The notes beneath the pieces are model-generated. The model saw only the letters and a list, made by a program, of their open reading frames with translations. It was not told where the DNA came from and did no database searches. A program made the translations under genes and the position numbers. 64,000 nt of DNA from Pseudomonadota bacterium (GTDB lineage Bacteria; Verrucomicrobiota; Verrucomicrobiia; Limisphaerales; SXTU01). How positions within the stretch are numbered: the stretch's first letter is position 1; the number at the start of each line of letters is the position of its first letter. The stretch lies in contig RFVF01000010.1 of the NCBI GenBank assembly GCA_009922615.1, positions 1 through 64,000 of the forward strand, in the 5' to 3' direction. Of the stretch, positions 1-52,196 are shown one piece after another.

Positions 1-384
<384 letters not shown>

Positions 385-504
385 AATTAGGTCGCTAATC
401 CGCAAGGGTTGGAATGGCTCAATATCTTATCGCACAATTCAATATTCAAAAAGTCAGCTCTTTAAGAACTCAGTTCTACCTTCAGTTCGGTTAGACTCCG
501 GCGT

Positions 505-580
505 GGGGCTGTAGCTCAGTTGGTAGAGCGGTAGCTTTGCAAGCTATAGGTCAGGAGTTCGACCCTCCTCAGCTCCACCA
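505..580 (+). tRNA. tRNA-Ala(TGC)
   Basis: A 76-nt cloverleaf in the 16S-23S spacer. The acceptor stem GGGGCTG pairs with CAGCTCC by Watson-Crick and G-U pairs, and the anticodon loop CTTGCAA region reads TGC. The CCA end is encoded in the DNA. The Ala gene comes before Ile here, the reverse of the usual Ile-Ala order in rrn spacers. Confidence 0.97.
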
Positions 581-586
581 TTACAT

Positions 587-663
587 GGGCCTGTAGCTCA
601 GTTGGTTAGAGCATGCGCTTGATAAGCGCAGGGTCACTGGTTCGAATCCAGTCAGGCCCACCA
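587..663 (+). tRNA. tRNA-Ile(GAT)
   Basis: A 77-nt tRNA only 6 nt after tRNA-Ala. Acceptor arms GGGCCTG and CAGGCCC pair perfectly. The anticodon stem and loop GCGCTTGATAAGCGC give anticodon GAT. The CCA is encoded. It is cotranscribed with the rRNA genes. Confidence 0.97.
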
Positions 664-768
664 CTTTTGCCGGCGTCTTCGGATGCCAGCGAACGTTCTT
701 TGAAAACTACACACAATAAGGGCATATACATTTCGCCGGAATTACTCACATTTTGAGTAATAATTTGT

Positions 769-3343
<2,575 letters not shown>

Positions 3344-3434
3344 GCTTTCTTTGAAAGCAGTTGAATGGTGAAGTTAATGTATGCTACTTGTGTGTAGTTT
3401 TCAGGGAACTCCTTGAGTTCTTTTAAATTTTTTT

Positions 3435-3548
3435 TGGTGGCCACAAAGCTGCGGCCCGACCCGATCCCATCCCGAACTCGGCCGTCAAACGCAGCATTGC
3501 CGATGGTAGTGGTTGTATAGCCTCCGCGAGAGTAGGTTGCCGCCAAAT
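3435..3548 (+). rRNA. rrf: 5S ribosomal RNA
   Basis: About 114 nt beginning TGGTGGCCACAAAGC and ending GGTTGCCGCCA, whose ends pair as helix I. The core CGATCCCATCCCGAACTCGG is typical of bacterial 5S. It lies 90 nt after 23S and is followed directly by a terminator. Confidence 0.95.
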
Positions 3549-49616: not shown

Positions 49617-50051
49617 TCACGTCAGCAGCGTCACGCACGGTGAGTTGTCCGGCGTGAGCGGATTGGTGGTGAAGTCCGCTGAGATCAGTCGCCCGCGCCA
49701 GTCGGTGATGAGCGCGCGGACCACACCCAAGTCCAGCCGCTCGTGCGTGGCGGGATAGGGACGGAAGTTTTCCTCCGCGAGCTTCAGCAACGCGGCGGCA
49801 GGGCGGAGGCGTGGGTATTTCAGGCAGTCCTTTTGCAGATGAACGAACGCGCCGGCAAGCTGGATGAGACCCTTGTAGAAGTTGCCGTTCGGTCCGTGGC
49901 GGTCGGCGAGCCAGAGTTCCTCCAGCACGTCGTGGGCTTCGTAGAACTGACCGCGATTGAAGCACGCGAACCAGCCGAGGTAGTGCGCGTCGAGGTCGCG
50001 GCCCTGAAGGTCGGCGATGAGCGCGGCGATTTTGGGAGACTTGTGGGACAT
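49617..50051 (-). CDS. DUF309 protein
   Basis: 144 aa from ATG 50051. The DUF309 signature is FNRGQFYEAHDVLEELWLAD...NFYKGLIQLAGAFVHLQK. Helical protein of unknown function. Last gene behind thrC-moaD-NIL on the minus strand, 61 nt from the NIL gene, so possibly in the same transcript. Confidence 0.9.
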   Translation of the reverse strand: MSHKSPKIAALIADLQGRDLDAHYLGWFACFNRGQFYEAHDVLEELWLADRHGPNGNFYKGLIQLAGAFVHLQKDCLKYPRLRPAAALLKLAEENFRPYPATHERLDLGVVRALITDWRGRLISADFTTNPLTPDNSPCVTLLT

Positions 50052-50112
50052 GAGGAGCGCCGAGCATCGCTCGGCATGAGCCGTGATCAGCCGAGCAATG
50101 CTCGGCGCTCCG

Positions 50113-50415
50113 CTAACTTTCCAGCACGCTGATCTCCACCGGCTCGACCTCGATGCCGAGGCTTTCGAGCCACTTGATGGCCGCACGAATTTCCGAGCGC
50201 GCGCCGTCGAGTTCGAGGCAGACGATGCCGATGTCCTTGCCCACGCTGACCTGTCGCAGGTTGAAGACGACCTTGAACTTCTGCCCCAGCTCCCAAATCA
50301 CCGGGCGCGTGATGAGCGGCGCGGGGAAGGTGAGCCACAGCCGCGACTTGGATTGGCGCGGATCGGGCGGAAGCTTCGGCTCGGCTTTGGCGGCGGTCTT
50401 CTTCCTGGCAGGCAT
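50113..50415 (-). CDS. NIL domain protein
   Basis: 100 aa from ATG 50415. After a Lys-rich N-terminus (MPARKKTAAKAEPK) the whole rest is one NIL domain: SRLWLTFPAPLITRPVIWEL...FNLRQVSVGKDIGIVCLELDG. NIL domains occur at the C-terminus of the methionine importer MetN, where they sense methionine, and in ferredoxin-fused proteins linked to homocysteine synthesis in methanogens. No ferredoxin cysteines here. It lies 16 nt behind the MoaD-like gene. Confidence 0.88.
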   Translation of the reverse strand: MPARKKTAAKAEPKLPPDPRQSKSRLWLTFPAPLITRPVIWELGQKFKVVFNLRQVSVGKDIGIVCLELDGARSEIRAAIKWLESLGIEVEPVEISVLES

Positions 50416-50431
50416 GCGTCGGTCCTTGAGG

Positions 50432-50707
50432 CTAGCCCCCCGCAATCGCCGGGATGATGCTGATTTCGTCGCCGTCTTTGAGGGGCGTGGCCTGGTTTTC
50501 GAGGAAGCGGATGTCCTCCTCGTTCACATATACGTTCACGAAGCGGCGGACTTCGCCTTTGTCGTCGAGCAGGCGGTCCTTGATGCCGGGGAACTTGATC
50601 TGCATTTCAGCGATGGCTGCGCCGACGTTGGCGGCGGTGACGGTGACGACTTCCTCGCCGCCGGTGAGCTGGCGGAGCGGGGTGGGGATGCGAACTTTGG
50701 TGGGCAT
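50432..50707 (-). CDS. MoaD/ThiS-family sulfur carrier protein
   Basis: 91 aa ubiquitin-like protein with the obligatory Gly-Gly C-terminus (IIPAIAGG). The beta-grasp core reads VRIPTPLRQLTGGEEVVTV and FVNVYVNEEDIRFLENQATP, ending DGDEISIIP. Adenylation and thiocarboxylation of the terminal Gly would make it a sulfide donor like CysO, ThiS or HcyS. No moaE or other molybdopterin gene is nearby; it lies 20 nt after the threonine synthase-like gene under a SAM riboswitch. Confidence 0.92.
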   Translation of the reverse strand: MPTKVRIPTPLRQLTGGEEVVTVTAANVGAAIAEMQIKFPGIKDRLLDDKGEVRRFVNVYVNEEDIRFLENQATPLKDGDEISIIPAIAGG

Positions 50708-50727
50708 GATCTGGATGATTAAATGGT

Positions 50728-51990
50728 TTATGCGGTGACGGCGACCTTTTCCTCGTCCTTCAGCATCGCCTCGAACTCGCGCAGGCTGGGGCGAATCTCG
50801 CGGGTCTGGCCGACGTGGCCGGTCATCGCTTCGAGCGTCTTGAGGCCATTGCCGGTGATGCAGAGGACGGCGGAGTCGGTCGCGGGAATCTTGCCGGAGG
50901 CGATGAGCTTCTTCGCCACGCCCACGGTCACGCCTCCGGCGGTCTCGGCGAAGATGCCTTCGCACTCGGCCAGCAGGCGGATGCCTTCGCGCACCTCGTC
51001 GTCGGTCACGTCCTCGGCGTGGCCGGCGGTTTCCTTCATCACCTTGAGCGCGTAGAAGCCGTCGGCGGGCGTGCCGATGGCGAGGCTCTTGGCGATGGTG
51101 TTCGGCTTCACGGGTTTGAAGAAATCGAGCCCCGCCTTCTCCGCGGCGCTGATGGGATTACAGCCCGTAGCTTGCGCGCCGTGGATGTGCCATTTGCCCT
51201 CGGACACAAGGCCGAGCTTCGCGAACTCCTGGTAACTCTTGTGAATCTTCGTCAGCAACGAACCGCTGGCCATCGGCACCACGGTGTGTTGCGGCGTGCG
51301 CCAGCCGAGCTGCTCGCAAATCTCGAAGCCCATGCTCTTGCTACCCTCGGCGTAGTAGGGCCGCATGTTCACGTTCACGAAGGCCCAGCCAAACTTGCCG
51401 GCGATTTCCGCGCAGAGGCGGTTCACCTCGTCGTAGTGACCCTTGATGCCGATGACGTTCGCGCCATAGACGAGGGAGTTGACGACCTTGCCCAGCTCGA
51501 GGTCCGACGGGATGAAGACGTAGGACTTGAGGCCGGCGGACGCGGCGTTCGCGGCGACGGAGTTGGCGAGGTTGCCAGTGGAAGCGCAGGCGACGGTCTT
51601 GAAGCCGAGTTCCTGCGAGCGGCTGAGCGCGACGCTCACGACGCGGTCTTTGAAGGAAAGCGTCGGATAATTAACCGCGTCGTTCTTCACCCACAGCTCG
51701 CGGATGCCGAGGCGTTTGGCGAGCCGATCCGCCTTCACCAGCGGCGTGTAGCCGACTTGCGTTCCCACCGTCGGCTGGCCCGCGATGGGCAGCAGCTCGC
51801 GGTAGCGCCACATGGTGCGCGGGCGCGCTTCGATGGCGGCGCGGGTGAGCGACTGCCGGATGCGGTCGTAGTCGTAAGCGACTTCGAGCGGGCCGAAGTC
51901 GAACTCGCAGACGTGTGTGGCGCTGAGGGGATACTCCTTGCCGCACTCGCGGCACTTGAGCGCCTTCATGAAACCTTCGTGCTTGTCCAT
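50728..51990 (-). CDS. thrC: threonine synthase-like PLP enzyme under SAM riboswitch control
   Basis: 420 aa from ATG 51990 (51969 is an alternative). N-terminal zinc-ribbon-like CRECGKEYPLSATHVCEF, PLP lysine in YPTLSFKDRVVSVAL, phosphate loop CASTGNLANSVAANAA, and ETAGGVTVGVAKKL near the end. It belongs to the threonine synthase group (O-phosphohomoserine to threonine), in the subgroup that I recall being followed by MoaD-like genes in actinobacteria too. The SAM-I riboswitch and sulfur-carrier neighbour argue for use of O-phosphohomoserine in homocysteine synthesis. Assignment as plain ThrC is the conservative alternative. Confidence 0.88.
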   Translation of the reverse strand: MDKHEGFMKALKCRECGKEYPLSATHVCEFDFGPLEVAYDYDRIRQSLTRAAIEARPRTMWRYRELLPIAGQPTVGTQVGYTPLVKADRLAKRLGIRELWVKNDAVNYPTLSFKDRVVSVALSRSQELGFKTVACASTGNLANSVAANAASAGLKSYVFIPSDLELGKVVNSLVYGANVIGIKGHYDEVNRLCAEIAGKFGWAFVNVNMRPYYAEGSKSMGFEICEQLGWRTPQHTVVPMASGSLLTKIHKSYQEFAKLGLVSEGKWHIHGAQATGCNPISAAEKAGLDFFKPVKPNTIAKSLAIGTPADGFYALKVMKETAGHAEDVTDDEVREGIRLLAECEGIFAETAGGVTVGVAKKLIASGKIPATDSAVLCITGNGLKTLEAMTGHVGQTREIRPSLREFEAMLKDEEKVAVTA

Positions 51991-52021
51991 AGCTGTTTGC
52001 CGAATCGCGTTCCGTTTTGGG

Positions 52022-52059
52022 GCAAACAAAAGCCCCGTCTCATCTGGATGAGAAGGGGC
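52022..52059 (-). terminator. riboswitch-controlled intrinsic terminator
   Basis: On the minus strand GCCCCTTCTCAT (from 52059) pairs with ATGAGACGGGGC over a 4-nt loop (CCAG), followed by TTTTGTTTG. The 5' arm CTTCTCATC is perfectly complementary to the aptamer 3' end GATGAGAAG, giving the alternative antiterminator. Confidence 0.93.
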
Positions 52060-52078
52060 CGGACAGTCGAGCGCTCTT

Positions 52079-52196
52079 CTCATCTTTCCCCCGGCCTCGC
52101 GGTCGGAGCTGGACTTGGCACCTGGTCGTTGCGGAACGCGCCGCAACCGGTTGCCGTGACGTCATCGGGCCAGTCCCTCAGTCACTCTGGATGAGT
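52079..52196 (-). promoter_or_regulatory. SAM-I (S-box) riboswitch
   Basis: The minus-strand leader of the thrC-like gene carries the S-box consensus in order: CTCATCCAGAGTGACTGAGG with P1 5' strand, GGACTGGCCCGATGAC, CACGGCAACC, a variable hairpin (GTTGCGG...CCGCAAC region), GGTGCCAAGTCCAGC and GAAAGATGAG closing P1. P1 pairs CTCATC (52195-52190) with GATGAG (52084-52079). With SAM bound, the downstream terminator forms and the operon is off. Confidence 0.95.

Follow-up and report, generated by a model that had tools for sequence, protein, structure and literature searches.

In Mycobacterium, the CysM/CysO/Mec+ system combines a carrier thiocarboxylate, an E1-type activating enzyme, a JAMM protease and a pyridoxal 5'-phosphate (PLP) enzyme of fold type II, and cysteine is made with a CysK-family enzyme. 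In Wolinella, homocysteine is formed with the thiocarboxylated carrier of the HcyS/HcyD system, which is trimmed by a JAMM-type protease, and with MetY, a PF01053 enzyme acting on O-acetylhomoserine. The Streptomyces gene metO, located downstream of metM, reportedly encodes a thiocarboxylate carrier. MetM itself was described as an O-phosphohomoserine-dependent homocysteine synthase homologous to threonine synthase (ThrC), with an S-adenosylmethionine (SAM) riboswitch upstream of its gene (Hasebe et al. 2024, AEM 90:e01247-24; passages of PMC12172450). The protein thiocarboxylate pathway HcyS/HcyD is named in a passage of PMC5764234, which also ties the NIL domain to homocysteine synthesis through a route of DUF39 (HcyBio) and a NIL-ferredoxin. 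The operon addressed here is located in a window of 64,000 nucleotides (nt), i.e., the whole stretch of DNA analysed (contig RFVF01000010.1 of assembly GCA_009922615.1, positions 1 to 64,000), from a bacterium of the Verrucomicrobiota. It comprises a SAM-I riboswitch leader and genes for a ThrC-like enzyme, a small sulfur carrier and a NIL-domain protein, and, judged from its sequence, it very probably forms homocysteine in the manner of MetM/MetO, with the NIL protein as a partner. The elements of the operon were as follows:

52197-52077, minus strand: SAM-I (S-box) riboswitch aptamer (RF00162, 74.1 bits, E 1.7e-15)
52060-52024, minus strand: intrinsic terminator hairpin and T-rich tail (sequence and fold)
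51990-50728, minus strand: metM-like gene, ThrC-fold PLP enzyme with an N-terminal Cys motif, 420 amino acids (PF00291, 225 bits; TIGR00260, 272 bits)
50707-50432, minus strand: metO-like gene, ThiS/MoaD-type beta-grasp sulfur carrier, 91 amino acids (PF02597, E 3.2e-18)
50415-50113, minus strand: NIL-domain protein, 100 amino acids (PF09383, 40.7 bits, cut-off 24)

This anatomy had been proposed in the original prediction, and the profile searches bore it out from the aptamer to the NIL gene. The gathering score of RF00162 is 44.4 bits. A GC-rich hairpin, GGCCCCTTCTCATCCAGATGAGACGGGGC, with the tail TTTTGTTT was located 3' of the aptamer, and the 5' arm of this terminator carried a 9-nt complement, GATGAGAAG, to the 3' strand of aptamer stem P1 (the antiterminator). 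Because the 5' arm of the terminator can pair with the 3' strand of P1, the leader is built as transcriptional OFF switches usually are, and its anatomy fits this presumed sense of regulation. The hairpin was not listed by a generic consensus scan for terminators, and the generic scan found no promoter. The carrier ended in IAGG, i.e., in Gly-Gly, and the intergenic gaps were 20 nt (metM to carrier) and 16 nt (carrier to NIL).

The arrangement was conserved in a sample of 20 genomes, composed of the window's genome, ten of its genus and nine of its order. The metM-like gene (at least 78% identity) was present in 16 of these genomes, and the carrier and NIL genes adjoined it in all 16, so that the arrangement is not due to chance; in five of the 16, about 400-670 nt separated the carrier from NIL. 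A single SAM-I aptamer per genome was detected in 14 of the 20, always just upstream of the metM-like gene. The two gene-positive genomes in which no SAM-I was found (G003 and G008) both had the metM-like gene at a contig edge, and neither the gene nor the aptamer was found in G012, G013, G014 and G018. All 14 leaders contained a terminator-like hairpin and 12 of the 14 a complement of at least 7 nt between P1 and the leader, both counted without a shuffled control. Two tandem, diverged carrier genes were present between metM and NIL in G016 (L017) and G015 (L018).

In a tree of 65 chosen sequences, the metM-like proteins (n = 43) formed a single group (support 100/100) that was separate from the ThrC proteins of the phylum. 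The group included the protein of the actinomycete Nonomuraea gerenzanensis, which was used as a stand-in for Streptomyces MetM; the latter was not found in the plasmid collection. The Nonomuraea locus showed the order SAM-I (68.7 bits), metM and a carrier gene whose product ends in AGG, and no NIL was found within its 9 kb. Its source record (NZ_LT559118.1, L188) is labelled plasmid I and has 10 annotated features; given its size of 11.85 Mb, it is probably the chromosome. The active site of the clade is, at the level of aligned residues, remodelled. Leu141, Arg210, Tyr213, Ala304 and Thr385 were present in all 43 members, whereas the same positions carried Thr, Asn, Arg, Arg and Asp in ten ThrC sequences of the phylum (group a), and of these residues a sister group (b) had only the two Arg in common with group a. 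The long-branched row L150 and the E. coli-type ThrC rows were left out of this comparison. The loop ASGSL replaced GNAGN in the clade, with the Ala and Ser in 43/43 members and the Gly and Leu in at least 95%. From the Thermus ThrC structures we take the Arg at the Tyr213 position and the GNAGN loop to touch the substrate or the cofactor phosphate.

Since both its anatomy and its clade match, the window operon was assigned to the MetM/MetO kind, with which it shares the ThrC-like enzyme, the upstream SAM riboswitch and the adjacent Gly-Gly carrier, in a genome where a separate threonine synthase was found and the classical homocysteine enzymes were not. It differs in its third gene, encoding the NIL protein, and in its host phylum; fused carrier-NIL frames, as well as JAMM and ThiF genes close by, were additionally observed in other phyla. 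The core chemistry is already published for Streptomyces, and the new part is the NIL partner, the fusions and the exclusion pattern in Verrucomicrobiota described below.

A second, unlinked thrC, for which the original prediction had suggested looking, was found twice in the window's genome. On contig C91, an E. coli-type thrC (PF14821) was located between the genes of homoserine dehydrogenase and aspartate kinase (hom-thrC-lysC), and a second ThrC-type paralogue was encoded on contig C290 (18029-19201, L183). The latter scored 592 bits with PRK08197, whose cut-off is 303, and the window protein scored 285, i.e., below it. A further TIGR00260 match was present in 24 of 25 metM-positive genomes, the exception being G008, which is 71% complete. 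Both the metM-like gene and ThrC were kept even in two genomes of 0.9 Mb (G055 and G076).

The original prediction had also raised the possibility that a classical homocysteine route would be missing, and this was the case for the enzymes searched: no full-length PF01053 (the family of MetB/C/Y/Z-type enzymes), MetX or DUF39 was found in the window's genome (92.6% complete), and the lack of the first two sets it apart from the HcyS/HcyD/MetY system. In this genome and in 18 of 19 relatives, PF01053 gave weak partial matches of at most about 35 bits, some of which exceed the Pfam cut-off of 27 bits. The eight such matches of the window's genome (six over the cut-off) were rejected as candidates, being DegT-type, class I/II and class V aminotransferases and serine hydroxymethyltransferase, and no full-length enzyme of the MetY type was found there. 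Full-length PF01053 proteins (431 and 418 bits) were present in G018 alone, which is without the metM-like gene and carried the single MetX found among the 24 genomes searched. HcyBio/DUF39 (PF01837) was found in 0/24 genomes, with a control search matching in 3 of 14 known genomes, and the DUF39/NIL-ferredoxin pathway was rejected on this ground; in contrast to that pathway, NIL occurs here alone or in one frame with the carrier and has no conserved cysteine. MetH, full or partial, was present in 16/24 genomes, including the window's (1549 bits), and the homoserine kinase model TIGR00191 matched in 7/24. Separately, a 700-amino-acid frame on contig C288 of the window's genome (L196:997-3096, minus strand) joined low-molecular-weight phosphatase, ribose/galactose isomerase (RpiB) and serine hydroxymethyltransferase domains, and frames of similar length in relatives gave the same PF01053 match region.

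Across the phylum, 240 genomes were sampled, with the metM-like gene called at E<=1e-80 and PF01053 at E<=1e-60. At most seven PF01053 candidates were scored per genome, which covered all candidates of the metM genomes listed except the window's (7 of 12; 15 of 15 in the 20-genome search). The metM-like gene was present in 10 genomes and PF01053 in 217, and no genome had both (p 7.9e-12, not corrected for relatedness; the ten metM genomes represent six genera and five families). Nine of the ten were listed without a PF01053 match; the tenth, G140, was absent from the listed positives and must therefore be one of three unlisted negatives. Neither a metM-like gene nor a full-length PF01053 protein was seen in G012, G013 and G014 or in 13 of the 230 metM-negative phylum genomes; these may be auxotrophs or use another, unknown route.

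We favour homocysteine formation because the SAM-I anatomy, the PF01053 exclusion, the further ThrC genes, the clade, the active-site residues, the sulfur-related neighbours described below and the published MetM all point to it. In the proposed mechanism, a MoeB-rhodanese E1-like enzyme, encoded elsewhere in the genome, would adenylate the Gly-Gly end of the carrier and load it with sulfur as a thiocarboxylate. The ThrC-fold enzyme would eliminate phosphate from O-phosphohomoserine and take sulfur from the carrier thiocarboxylate, instead of water as threonine synthase does, and hydrolysis would yield homocysteine, which MetH would convert to methionine. High SAM would stabilise the aptamer, so that the terminator would form and the operon would be switched off, and the NIL protein would bind methionine or homocysteine and regulate or assist the carrier/enzyme pair. 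The original proposal of homocysteine synthesis from O-phosphohomoserine and a carrier thiocarboxylate is thus supported by the genomic evidence.

A scan of genome contigs yielded at least 591 relatives, the best 80 of which were kept and joined with nine loci from the phylum scan (89 loci, L049-L137, with flanks of at most 5 kb, some ending at a contig edge). According to the record titles, some of them doubtful for metagenome-assembled genomes (MAGs), the loci span Verrucomicrobiota, Kiritimatiellota, Nitrospirota, Nitrospinota, Thermodesulfobacteriota, Myxococcota, Mariprofundus, Omnitrophota, Margulisiibacteriota and one cyanobacterium. The carrier was present in 84/89 loci, NIL in 64, ThiF in 26 and a JAMM protease in 18. 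SAM-I was detected in 52/89 (6/9 by Rfam and 46/80 by a purpose-built model whose training set of 20 aptamers included several from these loci). The co-occurrence of PLP enzyme, carrier and riboswitch that the original prediction had suggested checking therefore recurs across phyla. The metM of L067 and L071 was 85% identical to that of the window, and the name Akkermansia muciniphila in the titles of these contigs looks wrong for such MAGs.

Apart from the Verrucomicrobiota whose carriers ended in a bare Gly-Gly, most loci had a carrier with 1-22 residues after the Gly-Gly or with a fused NIL. In eight loci (L125 being cut by a contig end), carrier and NIL followed each other in one frame with the Gly-Gly inside, and Pfam confirmed both domains in the two fusions tested (L089 and L112). 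JAMM was located near 16 of 37 tailed or fused carriers but near just 2 of the 46 with a bare end (p 2e-5, without correction for relatedness), and 21 of the 37 had no JAMM within the flank. Among 25 metM-positive phylum genomes, a strong Prok-JAB match was found in G140 alone (85.9 bits; all others below 29), and the carrier of G140 has a tail after its Gly-Gly. The occurrence of JAMM near tailed and fused carriers, together with G140, points to removal of the tails and of the fused NIL by the protease. Tail removal by a JAMM protease is known for other carriers.

The NIL profile built from 36 relatives matched the C-terminal (C2/NIL) domain of MetN (3dhx, E 9e-10), although the window NIL is not part of a transporter. 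The MetN C2 domain binds methionine at its dimer interface (passage of PMC10710835). No conserved cysteine was present in the 36 NIL sequences, which disfavours a sulfur-relay role. NIL is most likely a methionine or homocysteine binder that would regulate or assist the carrier/enzyme pair. It was not seen in 25 of the 89 loci, including L050-L052 and that of the cyanobacterium, although some of the 25 are truncated; its absence there and in Nonomuraea indicates that NIL is not essential to the reaction everywhere. Tentatively, and with the balance somewhat against it, NIL may be a true third component: a subunit that binds methionine or homocysteine and is co-produced with the carrier, which in several phyla would take the form of a carrier-GlyGly-NIL precursor that JAMM must cut to release the two proteins. 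If so, the end product would control the pathway twice, with SAM acting on the RNA and methionine or homocysteine on the protein, and ubiquitin fusion precursors would have a bacterial counterpart in these cleaved precursors of carrier and regulator. No report of NIL paired with a sulfur carrier was found in the literature searched, and the MetM paper itself may mention it.

The neighbours of metM in other phyla represent a sulfur-assimilation setting. Among 20 chosen proteins encoded near metM in 13 loci, 12 belonged to PALP (one of them fused to TusA), three were of the sulfite/nitrite reductase type, one was an ATP sulfurylase and four were unrelated or unmatched. Nine of the PALP enzymes were compared with NCBIfam; all had a cysteine synthase model as their best match, six of them over the curated cut-off. 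Pfam matches bore out the ThiF and JAMM assignments in L116 and L113. The TusA fusion, a cysteine synthase-like enzyme, lies beside metM-metO-ThiF (L134:7399-8601).

Several observations weigh against homocysteine formation, and some of them favour an ordinary threonine synthase under SAM control, which would set the threonine/methionine branch. The window protein matched the threonine synthase model TIGR00260 with 272 bits against a curated cut-off of 167, and the five solved-structure sequences matched at E<=1e-40 were all threonine synthases. According to passages of PMC12172450, threonine synthase and deaminase activity was reported for a cyanobacterial relative, which shares 51.6% identity with Streptomyces MetM, and methionine did not rise; this is the strongest caution, since the product cannot be read from clade membership alone. 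The absences are soft because the window's genome is 92.6% complete, and the 13 metM-negative phylum genomes without PF01053 show that its lack is not confined to metM genomes. TIGR00191 homoserine kinase was not found in the window's genome despite hom and thrC, other kinase types not having been searched; gaps at this step are known elsewhere (passage on TIGR02535 in PMC7311316). A MoeB-type E1 is required but does not set metM genomes apart, since 27/29 metM-negative genomes also gave a match above 250 bits. Of the six leaders examined from beyond the order, L050 alone showed a convincing terminator. A plain threonine synthase nevertheless appears very improbable, since another ThrC is kept in 24/25 metM genomes, including the two of 0.9 Mb, the ThrC Arg residues at 213 and 304 are replaced in 43/43 clade members, and the window protein stays below the PRK08197 cut-off, which the C290 paralogue passes. 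The carrier, the sulfur-assimilation neighbours and the mutual exclusion with PF01053 argue in the same direction. As the original prediction had reasoned, shutdown by SAM is sensible for the methionine branch, whereas an OFF switch on a threonine synthase would act in the wrong direction.

A carrier-dependent cysteine synthase, similar to CysM/CysO and using O-phosphoserine or O-acetylserine, would follow the same carrier logic, and the cysteine synthase genes adjoining metM in several phyla imply that the carrier may serve both enzymes. The window enzyme is, however, closest to ThrC and not to CysK/CysM (272-285 bits with ThrC models versus 39 with the listed cysteine synthase model), the cysteine synthases are separate genes, and no other gene found would explain the homocysteine step; we therefore give this reading hardly any weight. 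An enzyme making both threonine and homocysteine, with the balance tilted by the carrier and SAM, could be argued from the report on the cyanobacterial relative (passages of PMC12172450), but dedicated ThrC genes are kept alongside, and its chance appears just as slight. Homocysteine formation thus remains the preferred reading of the operon.

Where no classical enzymes are found in a bacterium, the proposed function offers a route to homocysteine that can be tested, and many genomes may contain homocysteine synthases among the genes modelled as threonine synthase. The operon also draws attention to NIL, so far an unstudied partner in a sulfur-carrier system. For Methylacidiphilum fumariolicum, a published metabolic model records a gap at homocysteine formation, with no supporting genomic evidence identified (passage of PMC12341988). 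SAM-I, metM, metO and NIL were all present in another verrucomicrobial species, Methylacidimicrobium tartarophylax (L096), and the metM operon is a ready candidate for the gap in Methylacidiphilum.

Downstream of NIL, the window carries a DUF309 gene (49617-50057, minus strand), which recurs beside NIL in the 11 genomes of the genus, and a 22-nt inverted repeat with 95% complementarity is located between the two genes (50054-50111). At the start of the window (1-3548), a ribosomal RNA operon was identified in the order 16S (partial), tRNA-Ala, tRNA-Ile, 23S and 5S.

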